NCBI RefSeq assembly: GCF_000165465.1
Contig: NC_017455.1
Coordinates: forward strand, 2,232,001 to 2,296,000
Direction: 5' to 3'
Length of the DNA stretch: 64,000 nucleotides
From: Halanaerobium praevalens DSM 2228
GTDB taxonomy: Bacteria; Bacillota; Halanaerobiia; Halanaerobiales; Halanaerobiaceae
Shown here: positions 22,545 to 38,805 of the stretch, in pieces
How the letters are laid out: every line of letters begins with the position of its first letter
Position numbering within the stretch: the stretch's first letter is position 1
Translations under genes and position numbers: made by a program
Notes under the pieces: generated by a model
What the model was told of the DNA's origin: nothing
The model's input: only the letters and a program-made list of their open reading frames with translations
Database searches by the model: none

Positions 22545-22574
22545 AAAAGAGCTGCCATCTCAGGCAGCTCTTTT
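22545..22574. terminator. Bidirectional terminator between trpS-gnat and the glycan operon
   Basis: AAAAGAGCTGCC and GGCAGCTCTTTT form a perfect 12-pair stem around ATCTCA. T-runs on both sides allow it to end both convergent operons. Confidence 0.9.
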
Positions 22575-22592
22575 AGTTTTTTTACTAAATTA

Positions 22593-23936
22593 TTAGAGTT
22601 GATTTAAAAGCTCTTTATTTTCTTGATAAATCTTTAAGATTAATTCTCCAAATAGGGTATTAGCCCAGGCAAACCAAGCTCGAGTAAAGTTAGCTGGATT
22701 ATCTTTATTAAATGATTCGTGCATCAAACCAGTACCAGCATGAGTTGATTTTAAAAGCTTTAAACAGCTAATAATCTCTTGGGGCTCAGTACTTGTTAAT
22801 GCTCTTAAAATAATTCCCATTGGCCAGATATTTTCTTTACCAGAATGCGGACTTCCCTGGCCAACTGCTGCTTGGCCTTGAATAAAGAAAGGATTATCTG
22901 AGCTTAATAAAAACCGACGGGTATTTTGATAAATTTGATCATCAGCCTTAGCAATCCCTAGATAATTTAGAGAAATTAGAGAAGGCACATTGGCATCATC
23001 CATAAATACTCTATTACCAAAACCATCTACCTCATAAGCATAAATTGGCCCATAATCTAAATGCTCAAAAACTCCATATTTTTCAACAGCTGCTTCAACC
23101 TCAGCTGCAAGTTGACTACACTTAGCAGCAAATTTTTGATCAGCAAATTCTGAATTATAGAGCTTAGCTAATTTTTTAAGAACAGAAACTGCAAACAGAT
23201 TTGAAGGAATTAAATAAGGAAATAAGGTTGCATCATCAGATGGTCTAAAAGCAGAATGGATTAGACCAACCTTTTTAGTTGGTCTACCAGTTCCCTTAAA
23301 AGTTGCTGCTTCGATCATTTCTGTTGTTTGACGAACAAAATAGTAGTCACTTTCATCATTTTTACGCTGTTCAGTCTTTAAGGTTTTATAAATTAAGCGC
23401 ATTGCCTGATCTAATTTTTCAGTAAAAATTGATTTATCTTCAACAGATTGAGTATAACCTGTAATTAATCTCACTACAGCACAGAGAGAATCAATTTCCC
23501 ATTTTCTTTCGTGGACTCCTGGTTTAGGCTGTGGTTTATCAGCTGCAAAAGGAGATTTTTGCTTGCTATCTTTATAAAAAGCATTAGCATAAGGATCTCT
23601 AAGCACAAATTCCACCTGTCTTTTAATTAAGCCCTTAATCATTTTTTTTAGTTTTGGGTCTTCTTTCAGCAAAGGCAAATAGGGCCAGACCTGAGCTGTA
23701 GAATCTCGCAGCCACATTGCATCAATATCACCTGTAATTACATAGCTTTCAGCTTCTCCATTTTTTTCCTGATAACTAACAGTTGTATCTAAAGTATTGG
23801 GATAACAATTGCTAAATAACCAAGCTAATTCTTGATCATCAATAAAAGCTACTACCTCCTCAATTTTTGCTTCTACAGCTTCACTTACAAAACAACGCTC
23901 ATTTTGAGGTGGTCTTTTAGTAGAAAGTCTCTCCAT
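22593..23936 (-). CDS. GH125 exo-alpha-1,6-mannosidase
   Basis: The 447-residue protein is a family 125 (former DUF1237) inverting, metal-independent mannosidase. The substrate-pocket signature GDIDAMWLRDSTAQVWPYLPLL is at about 69-90. PKPGVHERKWEIDSLCAVVRL and the C-terminal GLMHESFNKDNPANFTRAWFAWANTL carry further conserved acidic residues. Characterised members remove alpha-1,6-mannose from N-glycan cores. There is no signal peptide, so it acts in the cytoplasm. It is the last gene of the operon, 15 bases after GH38, a pairing also known from Streptococcus and Clostridium N-glycan loci. Confidence 0.93.
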   Translation of the reverse strand: MERLSTKRPPQNERCFVSEAVEAKIEEVVAFIDDQELAWLFSNCYPNTLDTTVSYQEKNGEAESYVITGDIDAMWLRDSTAQVWPYLPLLKEDPKLKKMIKGLIKRQVEFVLRDPYANAFYKDSKQKSPFAADKPQPKPGVHERKWEIDSLCAVVRLITGYTQSVEDKSIFTEKLDQAMRLIYKTLKTEQRKNDESDYYFVRQTTEMIEAATFKGTGRPTKKVGLIHSAFRPSDDATLFPYLIPSNLFAVSVLKKLAKLYNSEFADQKFAAKCSQLAAEVEAAVEKYGVFEHLDYGPIYAYEVDGFGNRVFMDDANVPSLISLNYLGIAKADDQIYQNTRRFLLSSDNPFFIQGQAAVGQGSPHSGKENIWPMGIILRALTSTEPQEIISCLKLLKSTHAGTGLMHESFNKDNPANFTRAWFAWANTLFGELILKIYQENKELLNQL

Positions 23937-23951
23937 CTTTAAACATCCTTT

Positions 23952-26900
23952 CTATAAACTCAATTTAAATGTCTTAATTTCATATGGTTTAATCGTAAAT
24001 TCAAACTGATTATTATTAACTGCTAATTTTTCAATTTCATTTTCATTTAGATCACACTCAAAAACTTGAGCCAATTCTTTTTGAGTATTAACTTTAATTG
24101 CAGTTTTAGTCCTTCTATTATAGGCCTCATAAACTCTAAGAATCAGATCATCACTAGCTTCTGCTTTTTTAACTACTTCTAGAATTACATTTTCAGCTGC
24201 AAGCTCAAATAAAGAATAATTTGCTTTTAAATTACCTTCTTGTTTTGCTACAACTCGCTTAAACAAAGGTTGGTTTAATTTATAGGCTTCTTTAATTGTA
24301 GCTGCTTTTTTCCAATCTCCCTGATGAGGATAAAGGGAATATTTAAAGTTATGAATTTCTCTATCAGCAGCTTCATTTGGATCTTTAGCAGATTTAAGCA
24401 GAGTTAAACGCATTCTACTTTCCTGAATATCATAACCATATTTACAGTCATTTAATAAGCTAACTCCATAATTATCTTCCGAAATATCAGCCCATTTATG
24501 ACCAACAACCTCAAATTGAGCCTGATCCCAGCTAGTATTTGAATGAGTATTTCTTTTTAAATTACCATATTGAATTTCGTAAGTTGCCTGATCACTATGA
24601 ACATCAACTGGAAATTCTGCTTTAAGTAATATCTGTTCTTCTTGCCAATCAATAGTTGTATCAAAATCAATCCTCGGTAGTGTGCTATAAATCTGAACCA
24701 ACTGCTCAATTTTAGAATCTAAAAATTTCTTAGTAATTTTGAGAGTAGCTCTAACTGGGCCATTTTCTATAACTTCAATTTTTTCTACCTCTTCAACTTG
24801 CCAGCGTTTTTCCTGATAATAAATATTAATATCCCAAGCATCCCAGTTATGAGGCTTATCTTCGAAAGCAGCCAAAACATTTGCTTTTTCTCCTGCTTTT
24901 AAAACCTCACGCTCTGCTTTTTTATCATAAATAGAATCAAGATTAGCCTGCTGATCAAATTGAAGTTTAAAGAAATCATTTTCCATTTGCTGACTGCTAA
25001 CTTGGAGTGTATTTGCTTTTACTTTGTTTTTGCTTTCTACAACTTCCAGTCTGAAAACTTTAAATCCATATGCTGGAATTGAAGGAGCCATAAAAATTAT
25101 TTTTTGAGTTTCAGACTCAGCATCCGAGTCAGAGCTAGAATCTAAATACTGGACTGGAATTTCTTGCTCTCCATCATATAATTTAATAAATTTAATTCCA
25201 GCTGGTAACTCTAATTCGACAATATCATTTCGTTTAAAATCTAACTGATTAAAAACTATAATCGAATCACTTTCTAAATTAATAGCAGCTGTGATTTGAT
25301 CTAACTTCTGCTCTAATAGTTTTTCTCCTTTTTCCATTAGCTCTAAATATTGTGCTTCTGACTCTTCGTAAACAGGTTTAATCGAAGTTCCTGGAATAAT
25401 ATCATGGAATTGATTTAGGAGTATTTTTTCCCAACCAGCATTAATTTCTGTTTGAGGATAATCAGTAGATCCAAAAATTAGATCTTTAAGTACACTAAAA
25501 AATTCAAGGTTTTGGTATAAAAATTCACTTTTACGGTTATATTTTTTGTTTCTGGCCATTGAAGTATAAGTTCCACGATGATATTCAAGATATAGTTCTC
25601 CTACCCATTTTGGTACCTGTTTTTCTTTTAGACGCTGGTCTAGTTCTTCAAAAAACTGACGTGAACTTCCTCTTTTCACCTTTGGTAGACCGGGAATTCC
25701 TTTTTCTAATCTTTTGGCATTTTCGTGCATTGCTTTAGTAACTCCACCACCACCATCTCCATGACCATAGGCAAATAATATTTGATTATTAATATCTTTT
25801 TGCTGATAACGCTGCCAACCACCTTTAACTTGAGATGGATTTAAAATCCCATTATAGGTTGTAAAAAAACCTTCAGAATCATAATCAGTTGTTGTAATAA
25901 AGTGAGAGAGGACTTCTGAGCCATCAATCCCCTGCCACTTAAAAGTATCATAAGGTATTTTATTATATTCATTCCAGCTTAATTTAGTTGTCATAAAATA
26001 ATCGATACCAAATTTCTTTAAAATCTGAGGTAAAGCAGCACTATAACCAAAGACATCAGGCAGCCATAAGACTTTGTTTTCAACTCCAAACTCATCTCTA
26101 AAAAAACGAGTCCCAAATAAAATTTGTCTAATTAAGGATTCTCCCGAGGAAATATTGCAATCTGCCTCAAGCCACATTGCCCCTTCTGCTTCCCATTGGC
26201 CAGACTTTACTTTTGCTTTAACTCTCTCAAATTGAGCTGGTTGTTCTTCTTTTAAATATTTATATAATTGCGGCTGACTTGACATAAAAACATAATCAGG
26301 ATAAGCTTCCATCTGATTTAAAACTGTAGAAAAACTGCGGCATACTTTTTCTCTGGTCTGCTCTAAAGTCCAGAGCCAGGCAACATCAATATGAGTATGG
26401 CCAACACAGTGAGTTATCACATCTTCTGACCCACAATAACCATTATAAAATTCTTTTTCCAAATAATTAATTGCTTGATCTACTGACTGATCAAAACTTG
26501 GAGAATAAACTTTGCGCAAATCAAGTAGATTAACTGCCTGATTAAGATAATTGATGATATCTAGTTGGATTTTTTGGTTATCAGCATTAACTTTAGCTGC
26601 TTCTAGAGGCACTTTAAGATCATAATAGAGTTTTTCCAGTTTTGGATTTAAAATAGCCAATTTTGTTTTGACTCGAATTTTCCCATCTTTAAAACCAGCA
26701 AAACCACCACGCTTATTGGCCTGCCAAGTCCCATTATATCCATGCAGATAAAGAGTATGGCTCTGACCTGCTTTGGCTTTTTTGGTTATTTGAACTACTT
26801 TATGATTTTGATCAATCCCTTGCTGCAGCTGCTGATCTACATAAACTACAGCTTCTGGCAATTTTTCTGCAAAAATAACTACCAATTCTTGACCTGCCAT

Positions 26901-27119
26901 TTTTTCTGGTACCTCAAATTTAGTTTTTAGCCAAAAATGTTCTTTTTCTTGGGCCTGCTCGCCAAATATATAATCAGACCATTTAGCTGGGTCTTTTTTT
27001 AAATCAGTTAAATTTTTAGCTTTTGACTTTTTTATTTGATAATTACTTAATTCTACTTTGGCTGAATAAATATAACTTTTTATTTCTTCAGTTAAACGAT
27101 TTAGTCTTTCAATTTTCAT
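23952..27119 (-). CDS. GH38 alpha-mannosidase
   Basis: The 1055-residue retaining, zinc-dependent alpha-mannosidase has the metal ligands in GHTHIDVAWLW (His243, Asp245). The nucleophile is Asp355 in LWLPDVFGYS, and a further conserved GHGDGGGGVT motif is near residue 452. It has the N-terminal domain, alpha/beta barrel, helical bundle and C-terminal beta-sandwich expected for bacterial cytoplasmic GH38. There is no signal peptide. Likely substrates are alpha-1,2/1,3/1,6-mannosyl residues of imported high-mannose glycans. AGGAGG precedes the ATG by 9 bases. It lies between GH85 and GH125. Confidence 0.95.
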   Translation of the reverse strand: MKIERLNRLTEEIKSYIYSAKVELSNYQIKKSKAKNLTDLKKDPAKWSDYIFGEQAQEKEHFWLKTKFEVPEKMAGQELVVIFAEKLPEAVVYVDQQLQQGIDQNHKVVQITKKAKAGQSHTLYLHGYNGTWQANKRGGFAGFKDGKIRVKTKLAILNPKLEKLYYDLKVPLEAAKVNADNQKIQLDIINYLNQAVNLLDLRKVYSPSFDQSVDQAINYLEKEFYNGYCGSEDVITHCVGHTHIDVAWLWTLEQTREKVCRSFSTVLNQMEAYPDYVFMSSQPQLYKYLKEEQPAQFERVKAKVKSGQWEAEGAMWLEADCNISSGESLIRQILFGTRFFRDEFGVENKVLWLPDVFGYSAALPQILKKFGIDYFMTTKLSWNEYNKIPYDTFKWQGIDGSEVLSHFITTTDYDSEGFFTTYNGILNPSQVKGGWQRYQQKDINNQILFAYGHGDGGGGVTKAMHENAKRLEKGIPGLPKVKRGSSRQFFEELDQRLKEKQVPKWVGELYLEYHRGTYTSMARNKKYNRKSEFLYQNLEFFSVLKDLIFGSTDYPQTEINAGWEKILLNQFHDIIPGTSIKPVYEESEAQYLELMEKGEKLLEQKLDQITAAINLESDSIIVFNQLDFKRNDIVELELPAGIKFIKLYDGEQEIPVQYLDSSSDSDAESETQKIIFMAPSIPAYGFKVFRLEVVESKNKVKANTLQVSSQQMENDFFKLQFDQQANLDSIYDKKAEREVLKAGEKANVLAAFEDKPHNWDAWDINIYYQEKRWQVEEVEKIEVIENGPVRATLKITKKFLDSKIEQLVQIYSTLPRIDFDTTIDWQEEQILLKAEFPVDVHSDQATYEIQYGNLKRNTHSNTSWDQAQFEVVGHKWADISEDNYGVSLLNDCKYGYDIQESRMRLTLLKSAKDPNEAADREIHNFKYSLYPHQGDWKKAATIKEAYKLNQPLFKRVVAKQEGNLKANYSLFELAAENVILEVVKKAEASDDLILRVYEAYNRRTKTAIKVNTQKELAQVFECDLNENEIEKLAVNNNQFEFTIKPYEIKTFKLSL

Positions 27120-27163
27120 AGTTAAAACCTCCTCTAGTATTTTTTAATTATTTAGTTCTTTTT

Positions 27164-29947
27164 TTATTTTTCTGCCTCATAAGCTGTACTCATTTTAATA
27201 CTTTCTGCCTTTGTTTCAGCTTGAACTGTATAATAAATCCGTCCCGCTTGACTGCCAAAATTCAAATTATCTAATTTAAATCTAGAACTATCATTCGGGT
27301 CAATTGCTTGAGATAAAAATGGTTTTTGAGCATCTAAGCTCTGATATAAATGAACTGTTTGAGCTCCCACAATATTTTCTAAAATAAATTCATCTTGAGC
27401 TCCCTTATTATTTAAAGCTTGGGCATAACTAAGGGGAATATAATTTGTTCTTGCAACTCTAGGCTCTTTGTAGAGCTGGAATTCATAGATTCTAATTGCT
27501 CCCCAGGGTGATTCTCCCGAATTATCAATCCACAGTCTAAAATATTGAGCAATAACTGCTTCTTTTAAATTTCGATCTGTAATCATAGCCTCATTATTTT
27601 TAACTTGATCTAAATCTTGATAAGTTTTGCCTTTGTCAGCAGAAAACTGTAATTTGAAATCTCTGGTATTCATTAATTTTGTTTCTCCACCTGCTTCTGC
27701 GTGTTCTACCCGCCAGCGCTGAACTTGCTGCGGCTGGTCTAGCTTAATTTCCAACCAACCTTTTTCTGCATTTGTTACACACCATTTACTATTATTAGCA
27801 ACAGTACCATCAACTGCTTTTGCAGCTGGTTCTGCCTTGTTTTCTGCACTAGCTCTTACTTTTTTAGCTAAAGCTAGATTAATTCTTGTTTTGGATTCTG
27901 GAATTTCTGTAGCAGAAGGTGGAATTTTAAAAGCAAAATTTAAATAAGCTGCTTCGCCTCTTTTATAATTTTGACTTACAGGAACAAGCTTAATTTTAAC
28001 TTTATCAGTATTTTTTTCTCTTTCAAGTTTGGAAATATAATAAGCATGATTATAAGTCGCTCCTATAAATTCTTCTTTTTGATTAGTTTTGACTCGATAA
28101 AGCTCATAAAAAGCTAAATTAGGATTATCAAGTTTTGGCCAAGAAATTCTAGCTTCTAAGCTTTGGGCATTTTGATAAATTAAACGATCAATATTTATCT
28201 CAGCTGGAGCTTTGATTGGCTGTATTTTTGCTTGATCATAGATTTTAATTTGACCTAAATTTAATTTATAATTCTCGATTTTAGTTTTAGCTTTAACTTT
28301 CAGAGCCACAGCATAAATTCTCTGACCGGCAATAGATTTTAATGGTAACTGAACTTGCTGCCATTGATTATCTCCTTTAACTTTTAAATCAAAAAATTTA
28401 TAATCCTTTGGCTGAGCTTGAGGTTTTAAAGATAAACCAAGCTCTAAATCAGCAGCAGCTATTGGACTTTTATAAGTTAAAGCTAAATAACTGGCCTGAT
28501 TGATATCTAATTTTGTTTTATATAAAGCAATAATATTAGCTTTTTTAGCTGCTAAATCACCACTTAATTTTAAGGAACTGCCTCCATTATAAGCATCTTC
28601 AAAATCAAAACCAGCCTTTAATTTGGGACCAACTGAATCTATTTGCCAGCGCCAAGTTGGTAAATATTCTTGTAAAGAGCGATTGTTCCAGGCTGAATCT
28701 TTAGCCAATTTACCTGCTATAAAATATTTTTTTCCCTGACCTGTATTAAAATTACTGACAAAGGGTTTGCTCCTAATTGCTGATTTCGTACTAACAAAGC
28801 TTGCCATACCCGGCCAATCTATTTGTTCTTCCAGCTGCTCGACTGAATCTAAATTAGCAGCTGAGCCAAGCCAAAAAATACTTTCTTTTTTATAAAAATC
28901 TAAAGGGTCTTGTGCCATCGAAAGAGTAGAATTAGGAGCAAATAAACCAAGTGATACTTTTAGTTTTGAATTAGTATCTAATAGTTCTTCAACTCTAAAT
29001 TCTGTTAAATAAGAATTCTGCTGCACATCAAGCCCAGCGTAAACAGCATAAGGACTCCGCTGATGTTTTTTAGCTGTTTGAACAGATTTTTCAATTTTTG
29101 CTTGATTCCAATTGTAATTTAAGAAAAATTGATCTGCTATTTTGGCTCCATTTTTTTGAAAAAAATGATCATTTTTGTCGTTTAAAGCATCTTGATAAAC
29201 AACTGGTCCTTGATTGATCATTGAATCATACCAGCTAATAATCAGTTCTGGTTTTTTAGCCTTTAGATAACTAATAAATTCTATTAATTTTTCCGAATCT
29301 GCAGCAGTTGTACCATAGCTTTCTTGGTTAAAAAAATAACCATCAAAACCATAAAAATCTGCAATTTCTATTAATTTATTGGCAGCTATAAACTCACCCG
29401 CTTGATCTTGCTGCAAAAAGTCTCTAAGTCGTTTTACATACCCTTTGCCTTGACCCCAAGGGAAACCTATAGTTCCTAAGACAGGAACTCCGTTTTTATG
29501 AGCAGCATTAATTATATCAGCTGTGGGAACTAAGCCTGCCCAATAAACATAAGTGTCCAAATACTGCCAATAAGAAAAGTTGTAGGTACTAAATGAATCT
29601 GTACCTCGGGCAGGAGCATTTTTAGTATCTGCATTAGTTAAAGCAATACTCATGATCTTTGCTTCTGGATTAACACCTTGTTTAAAGTTGGGGCCAGCAA
29701 ATCTCTTTTTTAAAGAAATATTTGCCTGATTATATTTGGCATCAGGATCTTGACTAGGCTCCCAATCTACTACATCTTCTACTTCAATAAAAGGTCCATA
29801 AGGCTGTAAAATTCGATTAAGATTTACCGGCTTTTTCAAAGCAGCTGCTCTCTCTGGATAAAAACTTAAACTAAATAAAAAAAAGATTAAAAAACTAAAA
29901 ACTATTATTTTTCCTGCCTTATTTAAAACCACTCTATAATTTAGCAT
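27164..29947 (-). CDS. Secreted GH85 endo-beta-N-acetylglucosaminidase with C-terminal discoidin-like domain
   Basis: This 927-residue protein has a signal peptide (hydrophobic 12-30, cleavage near AAA at 34-36). The GH85 barrel shows YWQYLDTYVYWAGLVP (126-141), NGVPVLGTIGFPWG (152-165) and the catalytic FDGYFFNQES, with Asn207 stabilising the reaction intermediate and Glu209 as acid/base. After the barrel come beta-sandwich and fibronectin-like regions. At about 690-850 lies an F5/8 type C (discoidin, CBM32-like) domain with VRASAENKAEPAAKAVDGT and WRVEHAEAGGE. GH85 cuts between the two core GlcNAc of N-glycans. The start is ATG 29947 with GGGAGG upstream. It is the only exported hydrolase of the operon. 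Confidence 0.92.
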   Translation of the reverse strand: MLNYRVVLNKAGKIIVFSFLIFFLFSLSFYPERAAALKKPVNLNRILQPYGPFIEVEDVVDWEPSQDPDAKYNQANISLKKRFAGPNFKQGVNPEAKIMSIALTNADTKNAPARGTDSFSTYNFSYWQYLDTYVYWAGLVPTADIINAAHKNGVPVLGTIGFPWGQGKGYVKRLRDFLQQDQAGEFIAANKLIEIADFYGFDGYFFNQESYGTTAADSEKLIEFISYLKAKKPELIISWYDSMINQGPVVYQDALNDKNDHFFQKNGAKIADQFFLNYNWNQAKIEKSVQTAKKHQRSPYAVYAGLDVQQNSYLTEFRVEELLDTNSKLKVSLGLFAPNSTLSMAQDPLDFYKKESIFWLGSAANLDSVEQLEEQIDWPGMASFVSTKSAIRSKPFVSNFNTGQGKKYFIAGKLAKDSAWNNRSLQEYLPTWRWQIDSVGPKLKAGFDFEDAYNGGSSLKLSGDLAAKKANIIALYKTKLDINQASYLALTYKSPIAAADLELGLSLKPQAQPKDYKFFDLKVKGDNQWQQVQLPLKSIAGQRIYAVALKVKAKTKIENYKLNLGQIKIYDQAKIQPIKAPAEINIDRLIYQNAQSLEARISWPKLDNPNLAFYELYRVKTNQKEEFIGATYNHAYYISKLEREKNTDKVKIKLVPVSQNYKRGEAAYLNFAFKIPPSATEIPESKTRINLALAKKVRASAENKAEPAAKAVDGTVANNSKWCVTNAEKGWLEIKLDQPQQVQRWRVEHAEAGGETKLMNTRDFKLQFSADKGKTYQDLDQVKNNEAMITDRNLKEAVIAQYFRLWIDNSGESPWGAIRIYEFQLYKEPRVARTNYIPLSYAQALNNKGAQDEFILENIVGAQTVHLYQSLDAQKPFLSQAIDPNDSSRFKLDNLNFGSQAGRIYYTVQAETKAESIKMSTAYEAEK

Positions 29948-29980
29948 AAATAAGCCTCCCAATTATATTTAATTATTTGA

Positions 29981-30586
29981 CTAAGTTCTATATTGAATAA
30001 ATAACCCTTTTAAAATATAAGCAACCCATAAAGCATAAAAAACAGCTGTAAAAAGTACAAAAAAACTATTCCAGCTCAAAACTAAATAAATTAGCGGAAA
30101 AAAACTGAGGCATTTAATAGTAGTTAAAAAATGGCGATTAGCCATTACAAAAGATGCTTTGAAAGCATTAAATAAATCAACATGATGTCTGGCCAAAAGT
30201 GGAAAAATATAAATGCTAATCAGTAAAAGCTCAAAGAAGACTACAAGTTGTAAAAAATAGATATATTTTGCTAATTCAACTGGAATTAAATTAATATTAA
30301 TTAGATTAACATAAATTAAATAAAAAGCAGTTAGTAAAATTAACCAAATCAAGCTGGCTTTTTTAAAATTAAGTTTAAAGCTTTGATAAAAAGCCTGTGG
30401 TATAGAGGCAATACTTTCTTTATTTACTAATTTAAAACTAAGATAAAATAAAGCTGTAGTTGAGGCTCCAATACTGACTAAAGCTAAACTAAAAAAAAGC
30501 CAGAGAAAATTAAGCAATAAAATTTTATAAACTAACTTAAAAAAACTAAATAAAGGGCCGTCATAATTGAGATATTTTTTCTGCAT
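29981..30586 (-). CDS. DUF624 (YesL-like) membrane protein
   Basis: This 201-residue protein has about five hydrophobic segments (15-45, 75-100, 105-128, 150-170, 172-192). It begins with NYDGPLFSFFKLVYKILLLNFLWLFFS, the usual opening of DUF624 proteins. Those occur inside many LplB/YtcP-type sugar ABC operons of Firmicutes, but their function is not known. A role in assembling or assisting the transporter is a guess from genomic association. It lies between GH20 and GH85 in the operon. AAGGTGG precedes the ATG. Confidence 0.82.
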   Translation of the reverse strand: MQKKYLNYDGPLFSFFKLVYKILLLNFLWLFFSLALVSIGASTTALFYLSFKLVNKESIASIPQAFYQSFKLNFKKASLIWLILLTAFYLIYVNLININLIPVELAKYIYFLQLVVFFELLLISIYIFPLLARHHVDLFNAFKASFVMANRHFLTTIKCLSFFPLIYLVLSWNSFFVLFTAVFYALWVAYILKGLFIQYRT

Positions 30587-30664
30587 TCTTAACCACCTTA
30601 AACTAAAATACTTAACTGATTTTTGGGAACTTAAACTAAGCTGACCTGAAATTGAATTTTGAAC

Positions 30665-32524
30665 TTAATTTAAATCTCTTAAATAATCTGCATACCAATT
30701 AATTATATCTCTAATTCGATAAAATTCAGATTCCCGACTAATACTTAACCAGAGTTGATGATAATCCTTTAAAAAATATTCTAAATCAACTGCCAGCTGC
30801 TTTGAATTAAAATTAGATTTTAACTCTGATTTCAGATTGCCAGATTTTAAATTATTAATTAACAAAGCTATTTTATTAAATAAAAGCATAGCTTGAGCAG
30901 CTATTAAATAGGCCTGCAGCTTGGATTTTTTGTCTAAAGCAACCGAACTTAAGCTTTGATATATTTTTTGGACCTGTTTTTTTATTTTTTGATTTGCTTT
31001 TTTAACTAAATCAGGCTCAAAATCAGCAAAATAAGCAGTTACTCTTTGGTCAGCTCTTTTTAGTTTATTCATTTCTTGAAAGCGAACAATCATTTCCCAA
31101 CCAAATTTGCTTTGCTGACTCAATTCTGCTATTATGGCCCCTATTTTTTCTGAAGGATCTCCATATTCTAATAAAGAAATCTGTTGATTAATTTCTTTAA
31201 ATTCCAGCGGCTTCTGATTCCAAGCAAAATTAGCTCCATAAATGAGACCCATAGTCGAAAATTCGGGATGATTAAAATGACCAAAATCTCCCCAGTCGGT
31301 ATTTAAAAGCCCCAGTGCCTGATATTGATGAGCATAATCTGTCATTAAGGTTATATTTTGATAAGAAGATTTGATTAAATTAAGAATTTGATTCCAGCCT
31401 CCAACTCCTGGACAAAGGTATTGTTTAGCTCCAGCTTGAGCTAGAGCCTTAACTGCAGTCTCTGACTGCTGAGGGGCATAGCCCCAATTTAAACAGATTA
31501 TTTCTGGGGGCAGTTCTTTAATTTTTTCGGGAAATTTAGATATAATATCTCCCCAAAACATTGGGATTTTACCATTTGCTAAAACAAATTCTGCTAACTC
31601 ACTGACAAAATTTAAATAAAGTTTTTCACTTCCAATCTCAGCTGCTAATTTTTGGCTGCGGTCTTGACCTAAATCAAAAGTTTCATCAGCACAAATATTA
31701 AAATAATCAGAACTAAATAAGGGCATAAATTCTGCAATCATTTGCTTGATAAATTTGAGACTTTCTGGATTAGAAGCATCAATAGTGTGATGCTGCATTC
31801 GATCTAAAAAAGAAAATTCTTTTTTGGCAGCTCCTTTAAGTTCAGCTAAATGCTGATAACTTTTAGTACTCAAAACTTTATATAAGTGACCAAAAGAAGC
31901 TAAAGAAGGAATCAAATCAATATTTAATTTATTACAATATCGATCTAAATCCATAATATCGGCTGCTGTTAAGGGGGTATCATCACGCCAAACTTCACTA
32001 AAATCTTCAAATAAAAAACTATGTTCTATATAAAGTTGTAATTGATTAAGTTTATAATAACTCATTTTAGCAGCTAATTTTTTTAAATAAGCTAACTTAG
32101 GAATCCTACCTCGACTCACATCATGATAAAAGCCTCTATTTTTAAGCTCGGGATAATCCTCTATTTCCAAGCAAGGCAAGACTGCCCCGTATTGTTTAAT
32201 AATCTGTCTTAAAGTTTGAACTCCAAATAATAGTCCTTCTTTGGCAGCTGCTAAAATGATAATCTTATCTTTTTCAATTTTAAGCTGATAGGATTCTGCT
32301 TTTAATTTAGAATCTAAATTTAAATAAATAGCTTTGGCTTGAGTTTGAGATTTTCTAATTGCTAAGTTAAAGCCTAAGTTTTTAACTATTGATTTTTGCA
32401 AAATTTGAGCATAATTATAAATTTTGGGCTCAAAAGCTGGATCAATTACTATTGAACTATTATAATTTAAATAAAATTGAGAATCAGTTATTTTCATTGA
32501 TTGAGGTTGAGGCAAAATATACAT
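30665..32524 (-). CDS. GH20 beta-N-acetylhexosaminidase
   Basis: The 619-residue protein has an N-terminal GH20b-type domain (1-120) and a catalytic barrel from about 125. The barrel has RGFYHDVSRGRIPKLAYLKKL and the catalytic pair Asp280-Glu281 in YFNICADETFDLG. In this family Glu is the acid and Asp orients the substrate acetamide that acts as nucleophile. A helical C-terminal extension (460-619) is longer than in short GH20 enzymes. There is no signal peptide, so it works on imported sugars. It would release beta-linked GlcNAc (or GalNAc) from antennae or core fragments. GGGGG lies 8 bases before the ATG. Confidence 0.85.
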   Translation of the reverse strand: MYILPQPQSMKITDSQFYLNYNSSIVIDPAFEPKIYNYAQILQKSIVKNLGFNLAIRKSQTQAKAIYLNLDSKLKAESYQLKIEKDKIIILAAAKEGLLFGVQTLRQIIKQYGAVLPCLEIEDYPELKNRGFYHDVSRGRIPKLAYLKKLAAKMSYYKLNQLQLYIEHSFLFEDFSEVWRDDTPLTAADIMDLDRYCNKLNIDLIPSLASFGHLYKVLSTKSYQHLAELKGAAKKEFSFLDRMQHHTIDASNPESLKFIKQMIAEFMPLFSSDYFNICADETFDLGQDRSQKLAAEIGSEKLYLNFVSELAEFVLANGKIPMFWGDIISKFPEKIKELPPEIICLNWGYAPQQSETAVKALAQAGAKQYLCPGVGGWNQILNLIKSSYQNITLMTDYAHQYQALGLLNTDWGDFGHFNHPEFSTMGLIYGANFAWNQKPLEFKEINQQISLLEYGDPSEKIGAIIAELSQQSKFGWEMIVRFQEMNKLKRADQRVTAYFADFEPDLVKKANQKIKKQVQKIYQSLSSVALDKKSKLQAYLIAAQAMLLFNKIALLINNLKSGNLKSELKSNFNSKQLAVDLEYFLKDYHQLWLSISRESEFYRIRDIINWYADYLRDLN

Positions 32525-32562
32525 TTAATAACCCCCAGTTAGTAAAATTCTATTTGCTTTGT

Positions 32563-33561
32563 TTAAGCTTCAAGTGGATTTTCTTGGGCATAAGCGATTA
32601 GTTGATCCACAGTAGTAAAGGCTAAACCTGTTACAGTATCAGCACAACCATAATAAATAGCAATTCTGCCTGTTGCAGCATCAACTAGACTAGCACAAGG
32701 GAAAACAACATTTGGGACATCTCCTACACACTCATACAATTTTTGGGGTGCTAAAATATAGTTTTTAGAACGATATTTAACCTGCCAAGGCTGCTCACGA
32801 TCTAAAATTGCTACTCCCATTCGATAAACAAAACCATTACAAGTATTAATTACTCCATGGTAAATTAACAGCCAGCCGATTTCCGTTTCAATAGGAACAG
32901 GGCCTGGGCCAATCTTGGTCGACTGCCAAGCAGATTTATCACCTGGATAAGTACCCATTACATGCCGGTGGTGGCCCCAGTACTCTAAATCAGGACTCTG
33001 ACTATAAAAAATATCCCCAAAAGGAGTATGCCCATTATCACTAGGACGGCTCAGCATTGCATATTTACCATTTATTTTTCGGGGGAATAAAACTCCATTC
33101 CGATTAAAAGGTAAAAATGCATTTTCTAATTGATAAAATTCTTTAAAATCTGTAGTATAAGCAAGTCCAATTGTTGGACCATGATAACCATTACACCAAC
33201 TAATATAGTATTTATCACCAATTTTAGTTACTCGCGGATCATATCTATATTCTCTTTTTAAAATTTCTGGCTCAGCACCTTTAAATTCAATTGGATCTGA
33301 TTCTATTTCCCAATTTATTCCATCATCACTAAAGCCAACAAAAATATCCATACTAATTGATTTACTATCACAGCGAAAAACACCGGCAAATTTATCTTGA
33401 TACGGTACAACTGCACTATTAAAAATACTATTTGAAAATTTCTGCTCATCCCGCTTAATAATTGGATTATCCTGATATCTCCAAACAGGATCTTTTAAGT
33501 TTTTAGGCTTTTTTTGCCAAGGAATATTTTTTAAAGTATCAGCTATAACTTTATTTTTCAT
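32563..33561 (-). CDS. GH130 beta-mannoside phosphorylase
   Basis: The 332-residue five-bladed propeller protein has GH130 markers IFNSAVVPY (46-54), the proposed general acid Asp108 in YDPRVT, and phosphate-binding Arg/His-rich segments HRHVMGT and IYHGV. Characterised relatives phosphorolyse Man-beta-1,4-GlcNAc or Man-beta-1,4-Glc to mannose-1-phosphate. The neighbouring N-glycan enzymes favour Man-beta-1,4-GlcNAc here, but specificity cannot be read from sequence by eye. The start is ATG 33561 with GGAGG five bases upstream; an in-frame TTG or ATG further up (33615) lacks a ribosome site. Cytoplasmic. Confidence 0.88.
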
Positions 33562-33601
33562 ATTTACCTCCACTATATCTTTATTTTGATCTATAATAAA
33601 G

Positions 33602-33640
33602 AAAAATGATAGCATATTTTTAATTTATGCTATCATTTTT
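33602..33640 (-). terminator. Hairpin between the binding-protein gene and GH130
   Basis: AAAAATGATAGCATA and TATGCTATCATTTTT form a 15-pair stem around 9 bases, with T-rich flank on the minus strand. Placed just after the binding-protein stop, it may end most transcripts or protect the 3' end, raising binding-protein output over the enzymes. Confidence 0.65.
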
Positions 33641-33662
33641 TTAAACTTAATTTTACTTTATC

Positions 33663-35072
33663 TTAATTATTATAAAATTCATCTACCTGTCTTTGGGCTT
33701 CAGCTTGTAATTTATTAAAACCTGCAGCTTCTAATTCAGCCTTTATCTTAGCAATTAACGGCTTAGGCGCTTTAGAACCTGTCAAAAGGATACTTTTATA
33801 TTTATTATAAATACTAATACAATTAGCAAGTTCATTTTGATAATCACTAGTATCCATATCAAAGCCTAACATGACAGAGGGAAAAGCTTTTTCATTTAAT
33901 TCTTGTACTTCTTGCCACTGATTAACTTCTTGTTCTGCTAATTGAGAAACTGTAAAGAAAGTAGCTTGAGTATAACCTGCCATTCCCCAGTTATTATTTA
34001 ATCTTTCAATTTTGCCTGCTTGATTATAAACAAAATTATCCCCTTCTAAACCGTAATATAAAGAATCTCTAAAATAAGGATCTAGATTTGCCAACTCTAA
34101 GAGTTCTAAAGCTTTTTTGGGATATCTACTCCCAGAATAAATTGCATTTAAAGAACCTCTAACAGTTCTATTAGATACAATTGGAGCGGAATACTGAACC
34201 GCTACTGCTTCAGTTCCCATATTTGGTCCCCAAACAGTTTTGGCTGCTGTAGACCAACCTTGAGCAATCTGTAAAATGCGATATTGTGGTACTTCAGTAA
34301 TTATTGGAGCATCTGAGTTGATGATTCCAGCTTTATACCATTGATGTAAAATTTCTAATTTAGATACAAATTCTTTTTGATCTAAAAGATTAACAACTTT
34401 TCTATCTTGATCTCTAACCTGAACTCCTAAAAATCTTAAACCAGTACCTAAATTATCATACTGATTTGTGATAGCTGTTAAGCCTTCTTGAGCTAAAAGT
34501 AAAGGACTTTTGTTTTCTCCCTTTTTGATTCTTTTTAAATCATCTGTTAGAGAAGCTAAACTAGTATCTTCCTGATAAGCAACATTATATTTATCTACAA
34601 TATTTTTATCCCAAACTAAATAATTTGTTAAAGAAGAATCTTTATAAGTTGGAACTGAATAAATTTTATTATTTACTTTTACTGCTTTCCAATAAGAATC
34701 CGGGATATAAGCATCAAGTTCTGATGCATTTTCTTTAACTAATTTTGTAATATCTTTAAAAGCCCCAATTTTGACTTCATTTGTATAACGAGAAGCATCA
34801 GTAAAAATCAAGTCGAAATATTCACCTGAGTTGATTACAATATTGCGTCTGTTTTCCCAGTCTCCCCAGGACACAACTTCAATTTCGAGATGAACTCCAA
34901 TTTCTTTTTCTAAATATTGATTGATCTCTGCTTGCCATTTGTCATAATTAGCCGGCATTCCATTCCCAACTGTAATCCATTTTAAAGTTGGAACATCTTT
35001 AGCTAAGGTAGTCAAAGAAAAGATAAGTAAAAAGGAAACTAAAAGACAAGTTAAAAATATTTTCTTTTTCAT
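33663..35072 (-). CDS. ABC transporter sugar-binding protein
   Basis: The 469-residue protein has a signal peptide (KKKIFLTCLLVSFLLIFSLTTLA, cleavage near residue 25) and no lipobox cysteine at the cleavage site. That fits a periplasmic protein of a two-membrane cell. It belongs to the family 1 extracellular solute-binding proteins related to LplA: KWITVGNGMPANYDKWQAEI near the N-terminus, YFDLIFTDASRYTNEV, and a C-terminal DUF3502-like region. It would bind the glycan released by GH85. The start is ATG 35072 behind GAGGGGG; TTG 35075 is the codon before. It is the third gene of the operon. Confidence 0.88.
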   Translation of the reverse strand: MKKKIFLTCLLVSFLLIFSLTTLAKDVPTLKWITVGNGMPANYDKWQAEINQYLEKEIGVHLEIEVVSWGDWENRRNIVINSGEYFDLIFTDASRYTNEVKIGAFKDITKLVKENASELDAYIPDSYWKAVKVNNKIYSVPTYKDSSLTNYLVWDKNIVDKYNVAYQEDTSLASLTDDLKRIKKGENKSPLLLAQEGLTAITNQYDNLGTGLRFLGVQVRDQDRKVVNLLDQKEFVSKLEILHQWYKAGIINSDAPIITEVPQYRILQIAQGWSTAAKTVWGPNMGTEAVAVQYSAPIVSNRTVRGSLNAIYSGSRYPKKALELLELANLDPYFRDSLYYGLEGDNFVYNQAGKIERLNNNWGMAGYTQATFFTVSQLAEQEVNQWQEVQELNEKAFPSVMLGFDMDTSDYQNELANCISIYNKYKSILLTGSKAPKPLIAKIKAELEAAGFNKLQAEAQRQVDEFYNN

Positions 35073-35139
35073 CAATAAAACCCCCTCATTTTTTATAAAA
35101 AGCTTGAGCTTTAAATCTCAGCTTTTTGCTTAATTTAAT

Positions 35140-36054
35140 CTAGCCCTTAACTGCTCCAATTGTTAAACCAGAAACAAAATATTTCTGAAAAAAAGGATAA
35201 ACTAAAGCAATTGGCACTACAATTACAACAGCAATGGCCATCCTGACACCTTCAGCTGGCATCTGACTTGCATATTGTTGTAAGGAAAGTCCTGCTGAAG
35301 GATTATTTGCTATAAATTCGATATTTCTCTGAATATTATTTAATAATGCCTGTAAAGGCATCAAAGATCTTTTACTGATATATAATGAGGCAAGAAACCA
35401 ATCATTCCAAAAAGCAAAACTTAAAAAGAGACTTATTGTAGCAAGTAAAGGTTTAGCTATTGGCAAAACAATTGCTGTAAAAATTCGCAATTGGCTGGCC
35501 CCGTCTATTTTTGCTGATTCTACAATTGAATCTGGAATAATTGTCTTAAAAAATGTTTTACAAATAATAACATTAAAAGAAGATACCAAAAGTGGTAAAA
35601 TTAAAGCCCAAATTGTATTTCTTAAATGTAAAATATTTGCATTAACTACATAACTTGCAACCATCCCTCCATTAAAAATCATGGGAATAAAAACAATCCA
35701 AGTAAAAAAACTTTTTAACTTATAATCTGGCCTTGAAAGTACATAGCCCATTGTTGTAGATAATAAAAGTCCGATTAAAGTCCCAATTACTGTAATAAAG
35801 ACTGAAATTCCAAGTGAATTTAAAATCATATCTTTTTCCTGCCATAAATATTTATAGGCTGTAAAAGACAGTTCTTTAGGAATTAATTGATAACCATAAT
35901 TGGCAATCGAAGCTTCGGAACTAATAGAAATTACAAAAACAAATAAAAAAGGAACAATACATGAAATCGAAATTATAAAAAGTAATATATTAAAAATAAT
36001 ATTTGTTTTTTGAGAAATACTATTAATCCCCTTTTTTCTTTTTGGCTTCTCCAT
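35140..36054 (-). CDS. ABC sugar permease, YtcP type
   Basis: This 304-residue inner-membrane permease has six hydrophobic segments. The EAA loop that docks with the ATPase is VESAKIDGASQLRIFTAIVLPIAKPLLA (about 178-205). It pairs with the permease gene 13 bases upstream. In this subfamily (LplB/YtcP) the pair imports complex oligosaccharides. No ATP-binding subunit is encoded in the operon, so a shared MsmK-like ATPase elsewhere in the genome is expected. Confidence 0.93.
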   Translation of the reverse strand: MEKPKRKKGINSISQKTNIIFNILLFIISISCIVPFLFVFVISISSEASIANYGYQLIPKELSFTAYKYLWQEKDMILNSLGISVFITVIGTLIGLLLSTTMGYVLSRPDYKLKSFFTWIVFIPMIFNGGMVASYVVNANILHLRNTIWALILPLLVSSFNVIICKTFFKTIIPDSIVESAKIDGASQLRIFTAIVLPIAKPLLATISLFLSFAFWNDWFLASLYISKRSLMPLQALLNNIQRNIEFIANNPSAGLSLQQYASQMPAEGVRMAIAVVIVVPIALVYPFFQKYFVSGLTIGAVKG

Positions 36055-36067
36055 TTTTAATCACTCC

Positions 36068-36997
36068 CTAAATTATTGCATAATCCTTATCTATTTTTTT
36101 AACTATCCAGTTAGCTAATAAAATTGTAATACAGCAAGCAACTGACTGTAAAAGAGTAACTGCTGTTGTCATGCCAATCGGAGTAGAAGATAATAATGAT
36201 TGATAAACATAAGTATCAATAGTTGAAACAGTATCATAAATTGGGGCGGGTATACCTCTTGTAACCTGATAAAATAAACCGAAATCAGAAAAGAAAATGC
36301 GACCTGTATTTAAAATAAACATCATAATTACAATTGGTCTAATACTTGGAATAGTAATATGTTTTACCTGCTGCCAGGTAGAGGCTCCATCGATCACAGC
36401 AGCTTCGTAAAGTGAAGGATCAATCCCCATAATACTGGCTAAGTAAATAACAGTATTATAACCTGTAGTTTTCCACAACTGAACAATAATTAAAATATAA
36501 GGCCAGTATTTAGACTCCATATACCACTGAATAGAATTTAAATGAAAATAATTTAAAATACTATTTAAAACTCCTTTATCATAACTAAAAAAAGCATAGA
36601 AAAAATAACTAACTACTACCCAAGATAAAAAATGAGGAAAAAACATAAAGGTTTGATATATTTTAGATCTCCATTTACCATAAATTAAGCTAATTATAAT
36701 CGCTAAAGTTACAGAAATAAAAATTCCTAAAATAATAAAAGTAATATTATAAGCTAAAGTATTTCTTAATAAAATCAAAAAACTATTTGACTGCAATATG
36801 TATTTAAAATTATCAAAACCAACCCAATTACTATTAACAATATTATATAAGAAGCTTTCTCCAGGAAATACTTGATACTTTTTAAATGCAATTAAGACTC
36901 CAAACATTGGTAAAAAACTAAATAAAATATACCAAATAAAAGTTGGGATTGCTAATAGTGTTAACTCAGTATCATCTCTTGTCCATTTTTTTCTCAT
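36068..36997 (-). CDS. ABC sugar permease, LplB type
   Basis: The 309-residue protein has six membrane segments and the EAA motif YEAAVIDGASTWQQVKHITIPSIRPIVI (about 197-225). The N-terminal TLLAIPTFIWYILFSFLPMFGVLIAFKKY is typical for the LplB branch. It is the first gene of the glycan operon, 75 bases downstream of a strong promoter, and forms the heterodimeric channel with the YtcP-type protein. AGGAGG precedes the ATG. Confidence 0.93.
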   Translation of the reverse strand: MRKKWTRDDTELTLLAIPTFIWYILFSFLPMFGVLIAFKKYQVFPGESFLYNIVNSNWVGFDNFKYILQSNSFLILLRNTLAYNITFIILGIFISVTLAIIISLIYGKWRSKIYQTFMFFPHFLSWVVVSYFFYAFFSYDKGVLNSILNYFHLNSIQWYMESKYWPYILIIVQLWKTTGYNTVIYLASIMGIDPSLYEAAVIDGASTWQQVKHITIPSIRPIVIMMFILNTGRIFFSDFGLFYQVTRGIPAPIYDTVSTIDTYVYQSLLSSTPIGMTTAVTLLQSVACCITILLANWIVKKIDKDYAII

Positions 36998-37073
36998 AAC
37001 TTAAAACCTCCTCTTTAATTGAATTAAAAATCTAATTGTTAAAATATTTTAAATTTAACTTAATACTAACTGC

Positions 37074-37102
37074 ATTTTAACACCAGATTTAAATATTGTC
37101 AA
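37074..37102 (-). promoter_or_regulatory. Promoter of the N-glycan operon
   Basis: On the minus strand TTGACA (37102-37097), a 17-base spacer and TAAAAT (37079-37074). It faces away from the LacI promoter 50 bases off. Confidence 0.8.
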
Positions 37103-37119
37103 TTATATTTAATATTTAA

Positions 37120-37145
37120 TTTAACAATTTTAATGTTTTGTTAAA
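37120..37145. promoter_or_regulatory. Inverted repeat between the divergent promoters
   Basis: TTTAACAA-N10-TTGTTAAA lies between the glycan-operon promoter and the lacI promoter. Similar TGTTAAAA and TTTTAACA strings occur near the operon -10. A candidate LacI-family or global control site; the region is so AT-rich that chance cannot be excluded. Confidence 0.4.
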
Positions 37146-37149
37146 AAAA

Positions 37150-37178
37150 TTGTAAAAAAAATAATTATATGCTATACT
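37150..37178 (+). promoter_or_regulatory. Promoter of the lacI-type gene
   Basis: TTGTAA, 17 bases, TATACT, about 47 bases before the start codon. Confidence 0.7.
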
Positions 37179-37224
37179 AAAATTGGTTATGGATCTATAA
37201 TCTTATTCTAAAAGAGGTTTTAAT

Positions 37225-38250
37225 ATGAAAAAAATCACAATGCAAGATATTGCAGATGACTTAAATGTTTCACGGGTTACAGTCTGGAAAGTTTTGAACG
37301 GAAAAGAGGGAGTTTCTTTTGAGTTAAAAGAAAAAATAATAAAAAAAGCTAAAGAATTAGGCTATCTCAAAGCTGAGATGCCTGAAGAAAAAGTTGAACC
37401 AAAACAAAGCAAAAAAATTTCTGTTTTAATTTCAAGACCAGAATCTTCTGTTTTCTGGATTAATATTATTCATGCTGTGGCCAAAGAGCTAGATCAATAT
37501 GACTTAAATTTAGTTTACACATATTTACCTCCAAAATACGAAGAAGGCTATACTTTACCTGATATTTTAAAAGAAGATAAAAAGATTGATGGTATTTTAA
37601 TTATGAATGTTTATGATGCTAAATTATTAGAAATGATTAATCAATTAGAATTACCAAAAGTCTATTTGGATCTTGTTAGTAAGTTTAAACTTGAAAAAAT
37701 AACAGGCGATTTGATACTTTTGGAAGGTAAAACAGCTGTCCAAAAAATAACCAAACATTTAATTGAAAATGGCAAAAAGAAACTTGGTTTTATTGGAGAC
37801 ATTAATTATGCTTTAACAAATAAAAAACGCTACCAAGGATTTACAACTGCTTTAAAAAACAAGGGTTTAGAAATAGAAAATAAATACTGCTTAACTAAAG
37901 AAATTGGTATTTATTCTTATTATACCGAAATATCTAATTTTTTAGATCAGCTAGAAACATTGCCTGATGCTTTTGTTTGTGCTAGTGACTTTATCGCTAA
38001 TTTTTTAATGAGATATTTTATTGAAAATGGGATTAAGGTACCAGAAGATATTGCTTTATCTGGCTATGACGGTAATAATGAATATTCAATGATTGCCGGC
38101 AAATTAACAACTGTTAAGGTGGAAACTGATTATTTAGGTAAAAGATTAGCTGATCAATTAATTTATCGGATTAAAAATCCTAATTCACCAATTGGGATTA
38201 CCAATATCTACTCGAAAGTACTTTGGGGAGATTCGACAAAGTTTAGCTAA
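37225..38250 (+). CDS. LacI family transcriptional regulator
   Basis: The 341-residue protein has the LacI DNA-binding domain at 1-55 (ITMQDIADDLNVSRVTVWKVLNGKEGVSFELKEKI). A periplasmic-binding-like effector domain follows, with GKKKLGFIGDINYALTNKKRYQGF and the closing IALSGYDGNNEYSMIAGKLTTVKV. It is divergent from the glycan operon, separated by 227 bases holding both promoters. It is the likely local repressor, induced by an imported oligosaccharide or a breakdown product. The helix-turn-helix has VW where most members have VS or VT and S, so operator recognition may be unusual. Confidence 0.92.
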   Translation: MKKITMQDIADDLNVSRVTVWKVLNGKEGVSFELKEKIIKKAKELGYLKAEMPEEKVEPKQSKKISVLISRPESSVFWINIIHAVAKELDQYDLNLVYTYLPPKYEEGYTLPDILKEDKKIDGILIMNVYDAKLLEMINQLELPKVYLDLVSKFKLEKITGDLILLEGKTAVQKITKHLIENGKKKLGFIGDINYALTNKKRYQGFTTALKNKGLEIENKYCLTKEIGIYSYYTEISNFLDQLETLPDAFVCASDFIANFLMRYFIENGIKVPEDIALSGYDGNNEYSMIAGKLTTVKVETDYLGKRLADQLIYRIKNPNSPIGITNIYSKVLWGDSTKFS

Positions 38251-38262
38251 ATTTTAAACTCT

Positions 38263-38805
38263 TTACCAGCCAATTAGCTCACTAAATAATTCACCGAGCT
38301 CGGCTGGAGATTCTTTCATCCCCTTTTCAATCCATTTATCTAAAGTACCCCATAAAGCACCAGCGTAAAATTTAGGTGCGTATTCTGCTGCCTGTTGACT
38401 TAAACCTAAACAGTTAAAAGCAGCAAAAGCCTTATCTAATTCGGCTATATATTTTTCAAATCCTTTTAACAAAATTAATAAATTATTATTTTTTAACAAG
38501 AGTACAAAATCTAAATGTTTGGCCCATAATTTAAAATATATTTCGGCTATTGTTAGTTGAGAATGATCAGCCAGCTCTAGATAAGATTGAATATGTTCTT
38601 CAATTATATGGTCAATATAAACTGCTAAAACTTCTTCTTTACTACTAAAATGAGAATAGAAAGTTCTTCTAACTCTATCTGCTTTGTCGGCAATTTCTGC
38701 TACTGTAATCTCTGTATAATCTTTTCTCTCCATTAAAAAAATTAAAGCTTCAGTCAATTTCTGTTTAGATTTAAAAGCAGCTGGCTTTGCCTTTTTACTT
38801 TTCAT
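38263..38805 (-). CDS. TetR/AcrR family transcriptional regulator
   Basis: The 180-residue protein has the TetR domain at about 8-58: LTEALIFLMERKDYTEITVAEIADKADRVRRTFYSHFSSKEEVLAVYI. The recognition helix (RVRRTFYSHF) is typical of the AcrR-like TetR_C_8 proteins. The start is ATG 38805 with AGGAGG nine bases upstream; a further in-frame start at 38835 would lie upstream of that site. It is divergent from the ferredoxin-nitroreductase gene, whose promoter is followed by a perfect palindrome. It converges with the lacI gene, ending 12 bases from it. Confidence 0.92.
   Translation of the reverse strand: MKSKKAKPAAFKSKQKLTEALIFLMERKDYTEITVAEIADKADRVRRTFYSHFSSKEEVLAVYIDHIIEEHIQSYLELADHSQLTIAEIYFKLWAKHLDFVLLLKNNNLLILLKGFEKYIAELDKAFAAFNCLGLSQQAAEYAPKFYAGALWGTLDKWIEKGMKESPAELGELFSELIGW

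Follow-up and report, generated by a model that had tools for sequence, protein, structure and literature searches.

A probable N-glycan utilisation operon with a beta-1,4-mannoside-type phosphorylase in the hypersaline anaerobe Halanaerobium praevalens

In a window of 64,000 nucleotides from Halanaerobium praevalens DSM 2228, whose genome is a single contig of 2,309,262 bases, we found a run of nine minus-strand genes (22593-36997) with a divergent LacI-family gene, which is very probably an N-glycan utilisation operon. This reading is built on protein families, catalytic motifs, operon layout, export signals and transporter kinship. In the pathway we propose, an exported GH85 would cut the chitobiose core of N-glycoproteins or glycopeptides outside the inner membrane and yield Man(n)GlcNAc. 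An NgtS-like binding protein and two permeases would import this oligosaccharide to the cytoplasm, with energy probably supplied by a shared MsmK-type ATPase whose gene lies elsewhere. Alpha-mannose would be stripped there by GH38 (broad, Ams1-like) and GH125 (alpha-1,6), and GH130 would phosphorolyse Man-beta-1,4-GlcNAc to mannose 1-phosphate (Man1P) and N-acetylglucosamine (GlcNAc) as the final step. GH20 would remove terminal beta-GlcNAc from hybrid or complex arms, or split chitobiose, and the LacI-family protein is the likely switch.

An earlier note on this stretch had also linked N-glycan capture and breakdown, and that linkage is supported by the families, by solved relatives and by transporter kinship. 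It overlooked the Ngt-type transporter, the phosphorolytic step as a distinctive feature and the outer-membrane setting.

Results

Gene content of the operon

As called, the nine open reading frames lie in one run with gaps of 13-78 nt, in the order listed below, and the LacI-family frame diverges from them, an arrangement that the earlier note had described correctly. Pfam confirmed all ten products, including the five enzyme families assigned before (GH85, GH38, GH125, GH130 and GH20), and catalytic motifs were found in all five enzymes. For GH85 and GH130, inner ATG codons with good ribosome-binding sites are the probable starts (29947 rather than TTG 29962, and 33561 rather than 33615), which widens two of the gaps, one of them to ~100 nt. 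The predicted genes are as follows.

36068-36997, minus: ABC permease A, Ngt-type (NgtP1-like); PF00528
35140-36054, minus: ABC permease B, Ngt-type; PF00528 and permease trees
33663-35075, minus: secreted solute-binding protein (DUF3502), NgtS-like, without lipobox cysteine; PF12010/PF01547
32563-33615 (probable start 33561), minus: GH130 beta-1,4-mannoside phosphorylase, cytoplasmic; PF04041
30665-32524, minus: GH20 beta-N-acetylhexosaminidase, no signal peptide; PF02838/PF00728
29981-30586, minus: DUF624 membrane protein; PF04854
27164-29962 (probable start 29947), minus: GH85 endo-beta-N-acetylglucosaminidase with F5/8 type C domain and signal peptide; PF03644, PF21910, PF00754
23952-27119, minus: GH38 alpha-mannosidase, Ams1-like class, cytoplasmic; PF01074, PF09261, PF07748, PF17677
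22593-23936, minus: GH125 exo-alpha-mannosidase, cytoplasmic; PF06824, 549 bits
37225-38250, plus: LacI-family regulator; PF00356, PF13377

Capture by an EndoD-like GH85

GH85 scores 294 bits against PF03644 (cut-off 22.2) and also carries GH85_C and F5/8 type C domains; its catalytic Asn-x-Glu motif is present as FNQE at 211-214. The nearest solved structure is EndoD of Streptococcus pneumoniae, with 478 bits for the long construct and 422 bits for the core, followed by 3fhq and its group at 379 bits. These matches suggest that the enzyme is EndoD-like. EndoD requires Man5 or smaller glycans, and the GH85 enzymes characterised so far act on N-glycans only (PMC10154615). By hydropathy only, the N-terminus is hydrophobic and signal-like, and the C-terminus shows no cell-wall anchor. 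Since the Halanaerobiia are diderm (PMC11448272, in excerpt), the exported GH85 may stay in the periplasm.

Import by an Ngt-type transporter

The best solved matches of the binding protein are 5mlt, 5swa and 5suo, at 128-130 bits. According to PMC5215778, 5SUO, 5SWA and 5SWB are NgtS, the N-glycan binder of S. pneumoniae, whose ligands include Man1GlcNAc and Man5GlcNAc. NgtS Trp81 is conserved in the operon's protein, given an inferred offset in residue numbering, and is weakly diagnostic, being present in one of two outgroup proteins and absent from the Enterococcus faecium relative. The lipobox cysteine, in contrast to all 12 of the distinct full-length Ngt-type comparators, is absent; the count leaves out a thirteenth row, L099, which is a fragment of the L126 protein (L and G numbers are our handles for loci and genomes). 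This cysteine also occurs in five further aligned proteins and is missing in two outgroup proteins, one of them from the same genus. Because the Halanaerobiia are diderm, a soluble periplasmic binding protein fits the envelope. Membrane proteins aside, only GH85 and the binding protein begin with a signal-like hydrophobic stretch as judged by hydropathy, which found no such N-terminal stretch in GH38, GH125, GH130 or GH20.

The permeases point the same way. The nine best matches of permease A among the fetched loci (46-51% identity) all come from GH85/GH125 loci. In a first permease tree, the operon groups with 13 permeases from N-glycan loci (97/99), while three GH130-locus permeases, and also four rows labelled N-glycan, fall outside its group. 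Plasmids were additionally searched with the binding protein and permease as queries, independently of GH85 and GH125. In the later tree the operon lies in a clade of 17 rows (100/100), defined by locus content and not by substrates tested. Fourteen of the 16 other rows come from loci with GH85 and/or GH125, and permeases from GH130 loci again fall outside. For two of these 14 loci (L035/36 and Niallia) the link is loose, with GH85 ~14 kb away. As for the ATPase, the genome encodes one MsmK homologue (65% identity) ~350 kb from the operon; MsmK has been suggested to power the pneumococcal N-glycan importer (PMC5215778, in excerpt).

Several observations weigh against the N-glycan reading. By the inferred offset, NgtS Trp386 is Tyr here; of the 12 distinct comparators, nine keep Trp at this place and three have Phe. 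No gene of the operon explains how glycans would pass the outer membrane. The 13 comparison loci were found via GH85 or GH125, which favours the N-glycan label. The closest transporter, on a megaplasmid of Paenibacillus cellulositrophicus (L173; binding protein 42%, permease 57% identity, with 52.8% given for permease A), has no glycosidase among 26 annotated features in the 14 kb on each side, in a gene table that is incomplete. An E. faecium plasmid locus within the clade (L175) has a GH20C-type enzyme, a GH2 and an annotated O-GlcNAcase beside the transporter, and no GH85 or GH125 in the 19 kb read. As both emerged from the search not tied to GH85/GH125, they weaken the view of the clade as purely N-glycan. 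Because L173 shows no annotated glycosidase and L175 carries other enzymes, transporter kinship supports an N-glycan substrate but is not proof of it.

The E. faecium locus would also suit a transporter that imports other HexNAc oligosaccharides (from mucin, chitin or bacterial polymers), with the alpha-mannosidases in a side role, and H. praevalens does use GlcNAc (PMC3156398, in excerpt). We regard this alternative as very unlikely, given that N-glycans are the sole substrates of the GH85 enzymes characterised (PMC10154615) and that PMC5215778 links the GH38/GH125 pair to N-glycan cores.

Further features of these loci were seen alongside. The L173 transporter (11872-19551) is accompanied by a two-component regulator and a second binding protein. 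L175 (6999-17729) also holds a DUF624 gene, in addition to the Ngt-type transporter, the GH20C-type hexosaminidase, GH2 and annotated O-GlcNAcase; the binding-protein search matched 69 Enterococcus plasmid records, of which this one was read. A Niallia taxi megaplasmid locus in the clade (L174) holds GH20C, GH38, permeases, two tandem binding proteins, YesMN, GH1 and ROK, with a GH85 ~14 kb downstream of the second binding-protein gene; it is an N-glycan-type locus, not annotated in the gene table. Small DUF624 membrane proteins recur next to such sugar ABC transporters (L123, L175, L102), and the one in the operon scores 66 bits against the MusI-family model, under the cut-off of 160.

Cytoplasmic trimming by GH38, GH125 and GH20

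GH38 (Pfam scores 308/235 bits) contains HTHIDVAWLW, PDVFGYS and NQFHDI, which we take to be its catalytic and metal motifs. It matches Ams1 at 532 bits (5jm0 at 448), versus 64-74 bits for 2wyh (SpGH38) and 3lvt; 5JM0 and 2WYH were identified from an excerpt of PMC6160142. A role as mannosylglycerate hydrolase was rejected (177 of 1138 bits). GH125 matches BT3781 (511 bits), 3qt3 (CpGH125, Clostridium; 386) and 3qpf (Streptococcus; 313), and has SDDAT and HESF, presumably its functional motifs. Because GH92 gave no match in the genome, alpha-1,2-mannose, if a substrate, would be left to the Ams1-like GH38, a class that could cover this linkage.

GH20 is divergent in sequence, with a best solved match of 73 bits. 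A model from a six-sequence alignment (its own and five relatives) has a GH20 fold with pLDDT 75.6 and pTM 0.82. By Foldseek, 7dup ranks first by E-value (2.3e-23), and the highest TM-score among the 50 matches listed belongs to S. pneumoniae GH20C (0.70 over 641 columns). The catalytic pair D280-E281 is invariant in all six aligned sequences. The Man(n)GlcNAc1 left after GH85 does not need GH20. By analogy with the Cutibacterium acnes GH38/GH5_18/GH20 set, for which PMC6160142 proposes this role, GH20 would act on glycans that end in GlcNAc or that keep the chitobiose core whole. The earlier claim that the enzymes cover every bond of a high-mannose glycan was therefore too broad: the genome has no GH92, the GH85 resembles an enzyme that needs Man5 or smaller, and one of the five enzymes is superfluous on the expected import product.

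Phosphorolysis by GH130

Among solved structures, GH130 matches Uhgb_MP (498 bits), RaMP2 (479) and TM1225 (421), compared with at most 135 bits for beta-1,2-mannobiose phosphorylases and 96 and 74 for mannosylglucose phosphorylases. The mannosylglucose clade had been set beforehand by the earlier note as the placement that would speak against its reading, and these matches favour Uhgb_MP over both it and the beta-1,2-mannobiose phosphorylases. The NCBIfam models for BtaManbiosPhlase (180 of 550) and beta-1,2-mannobiose phosphorylase (153 of 450) also fall far under their cut-offs. In a 30-row tree the protein lies within the Uhgb_MP/RaMP2 half (100/100), among beta-1,4-mannoside phosphorylases (GH130_2). 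In two motifs, NGYHGPTIG and a second of 12 residues, the protein agrees fully with Uhgb_MP, and the pair does not occur together in any of the 28 other rows; these motifs may have a part in setting the acceptor. Taken together, this suggests that GH130 probably breaks Man-beta-1,4-GlcNAc with phosphate, with GlcNAc as an inferred acceptor that the sequence does not settle. According to a review, the families known to act on Man-beta-1,4-GlcNAc are GH2, GH5_18 and GH130. For the Man1P released, the genome has five matches to the PGM/PMM family, not sorted by substrate. D-mannose and N-acetylglucosamine are among the sugars that H. praevalens GSL (DSM 2228), a strain from Great Salt Lake, reportedly uses (PMC3156398, in excerpt).

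GH130 is altered at otherwise well-kept positions, for instance VYRMGV where relatives have VYSMGA or similar. In the tree, its end branch (0.54) is longer than any other, and it lacks a close sister. Together, these features hint at an altered specificity.

By identity, the nearest proteins are three from Halanaerobiales (68-71%), and one of them counts against a role in N-glycan breakdown: the ~70%-identical GH130 of G018, from the same genus, sits in a beta-mannan-type locus with a cellobiose-2-epimerase-like gene, another GH130, GH2 and GH1. For the G008 relative, GH1 and GH2-like genes lie at a distance of 8-12 kb along the contig, and that of G009 (L104) has no neighbours of this kind. 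With the G018 locus and the nearly equal scores for RaMP2 and Uhgb_MP, the operon might instead serve mannose-rich glycans generally, such as yeast alpha-mannan fragments or beta-1,4-manno-oligosaccharides, with GH130 as a manno-oligosaccharide phosphorylase and not a Man-GlcNAc phosphorylase. We consider this unlikely, though less so than import of other HexNAc oligosaccharides, since genes for an epimerase, a second GH130, an endo-mannanase and a beta-mannosidase are all lacking from the operon, GH85 would be useless for mannan, and the motif pair is shared with Uhgb_MP alone. For the N-glycan reading that we prefer, local recruitment of GH130 from a mannan phosphorylase is plausible.

Boundary signals and regulation

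Two signals flank the operon.

37102-37074, minus: promoter-like site TTGACA-17-TAAAAT with TG extension, upstream of permease A; 11/12 consensus bases
22544-22575, no strand: 13-pair stem-loop, bidirectional terminator-like, between convergent genes

The consensus promoter claimed earlier thus stands as a near-consensus site ahead of the operon, a score reached by 6 of 500 base shuffles of the 227-bp intergenic gap, but promoter-like sites across the whole region hardly exceed chance (97 vs 81.4, sd 9.5). Likewise, the stem-loop is real, the sole stem with at least 12 pairs and at least 5 GC pairs in 21500-40000 (none in 5 shuffles), but to call it a strong terminator of the operon goes too far: its T-run is good on the plus strand and weak on the operon's strand. 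Terminator-like sites region-wide are not above chance (9 vs 9.8). From its position, the LacI-family protein is the probable repressor of the operon. The best operator candidates listed are AT-rich inverted repeats with 11-18 nt spacers and no CG-centred palindrome, and we claim none of them. ARAGORN and Rfam scans of the whole window gave no matches.

Distribution and origin

We surveyed 398 genomes of the phylum, leaving weaker matches out of the counts. Seven genomes have a GH85 that scores above 150 bits, nine have a full-length GH125 with more than 500 bits, and 30 have a GH130 at E <= 1e-60. GH130 and full-length GH125 co-occur in six genomes and stand together only in H. praevalens; in G059, G103, G141, G367 and G407 they either lie on separate contigs or have more than 600 kb between them.

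The related loci in this study come from Peptostreptococcaceae, plasmids and other Bacillota genomes. Nineteen loci with GH85 or GH125 were read by homology with flanks of ~10-20 kb. An Ngt-type importer is present in 13 (L006-L011, L035/36, L037/38, L039/40, L123, L125, L126, L128), and none of the 13 has GH130 or the operon-type GH20 in the flanks read, L125 ending inside its binding-protein gene. A YesM/YesN-like regulator pair accompanies the importer in 10 of the 13. Other enzymes in these loci include GH1, GH3, GH31, a GH38 of another class, a weakly matching GH5/GH42-like protein, GH92 and GH20C, and in L035/36 the ~14 kb between importer and GH85 holds other genes. The operon looks like a graft, in which GH130, GH20 and LacI were joined to an Ngt-type importer, GH85, GH38 and GH125 of the sort that other Bacillota have.

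Within the order, counting H. praevalens, GH85 occurs in 2 of 38 genomes, GH125 in 1 and GH20 (E <= 1e-20) in 5. Each of the three is absent from all 11 other Halanaerobium genomes, two of which are less than 90% complete; for GH130, the phylum sample took in G018 alone from the genus. The operon stands at a synteny break: its right flank (nitroreductase, PLD, PFOR, DUF2330) is kept in G014 and G010 without the operon. A clean empty site in these two genomes was rejected, as the left flank is not kept. Gain in the H. praevalens lineage is a simpler reading than loss elsewhere.

This absence from the other Halanaerobium genomes, the synteny break and the long GH130 branch would also be expected of an acquired island that is now idle or decaying, with no current function. 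We think this the least probable alternative: ten of ten frames are open, with ribosome-binding sites at the starts (inner starts for GH85 and GH130), the catalytic motifs are intact and a near-consensus promoter lies ahead of the operon. Because its GC content (31.7%) is close to that of the window (31.2%), the operon appears to be at home in the genome or old, and foreign composition as a sign of recent transfer was rejected.

Two neighbouring observations concern the order and the flank. The only other GH85 found in the order, in G007 (L004/L005), lies near an Ams1-like GH38 (43% identity to the operon's) and two ABC transporter sets; that genome has no GH125, and its locus is a different N-glycan-type locus. 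At 20945-21946 of the window lies a second tryptophanyl-tRNA synthetase gene, 39% identical to the other genome copy, with close copies (73-76%) in 4 of 11 other Halanaerobium genomes.

Discussion

One of the nearest described systems is the S. pneumoniae pathway of EndoD, NgtS/NgtP1/NgtP2, GH38, GH125, GH92, GH20C and ROK (PMC5215778, in excerpt). Both have a secreted GH85, an NgtS-type ABC importer without its own ATPase, and GH125 and GH38 without export signals, and the H. praevalens GH20 fold is nearest to GH20C by TM-score among the 50 matches listed. In contrast, the H. praevalens genes form one operon and include GH130 and LacI; GH92, GH29 and ROK are not in that operon, GH92 not in the genome. 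Its GH38 is Ams1-like and not of the 2wyh class, its binding protein is no lipoprotein, and a cell-wall anchor is not seen at the C-terminus of its GH85.

Peptostreptococcaceae-type loci (Romboutsia, Paraclostridium, Faecalimicrobium and kin; L006-L011) share permease A, permease B, binding protein, GH125 and GH85 in one run in six of seven loci, the seventh (L012) being cut by a contig end and showing GH125 and GH85. They differ in having a YesM/YesN two-component regulator, GH1, ROK and GH31, and no GH38, GH130 or operon-type GH20 in the 10 kb flanks read.

For the phosphorolytic step, the counterparts are Uhgb_MP, from an uncultured gut bacterium, and BT1033 of Bacteroides thetaiotaomicron, both GH130 phosphorylases of the N-glycan core (PMC8950772). 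The expected reaction is the same (Man-beta-1,4-GlcNAc + Pi to Man1P + GlcNAc), as is, for Uhgb_MP, the GH130 branch; unlike theirs, the H. praevalens phosphorylase lies in an ABC-importer operon with GH85. The C. acnes locus (PMC6160142, in excerpt) similarly groups genes for a cytoplasmic alpha-mannosidase, for GH20, for an ABC transporter and for an enzyme that breaks the beta-mannose bond. There, however, the bond is hydrolysed by GH5_18, whose place GH130 takes in H. praevalens.

In the open-access literature, apart from subscription papers, we found no text on N-glycan use by Halanaerobium (the sole co-mention was unrelated) and none on a Halanaerobium GH85; a passage found for Halanaerobium together with mannosidase concerns guar gum. 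The single families are probably listed in the public annotation of the H. praevalens genome, and N-glycan breakdown as a lifestyle is best known from animal-associated microbes. Ngt-type N-glycan loci are themselves known; this one stands out by its phosphorylase, its probable LacI switch, a binding protein in soluble form and a diderm host from hypersaline habitats. On balance, we lean, by a modest degree, towards a fuller account, in which a free-living diderm anaerobe of brine takes N-glycans apart by a phosphorolytic pathway put together from an Ngt-type import module, a beta-1,4-mannoside-type phosphorylase and a separate GH20. In this account the binding protein turned from lipoprotein to soluble periplasmic protein and the target is the N-glycoprotein of brine shrimp, algae or fungi.

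The operon raises the question of how large glycans or glycopeptides cross the outer membrane of diderm Bacillota when it holds no outer-membrane uptake gene. Glycan release and Man-beta-1,4-GlcNAc synthesis are uses for which its enzymes may offer salt tolerance. If the reading is true, a fermenter would save ATP by phosphorolysis, as no kinase is required for Man1P, and N-glycans, from glycoproteins whose possible sources are algae, fungi or animals, would feed anaerobes of hypersaline sediment and not animal-associated microbes only.

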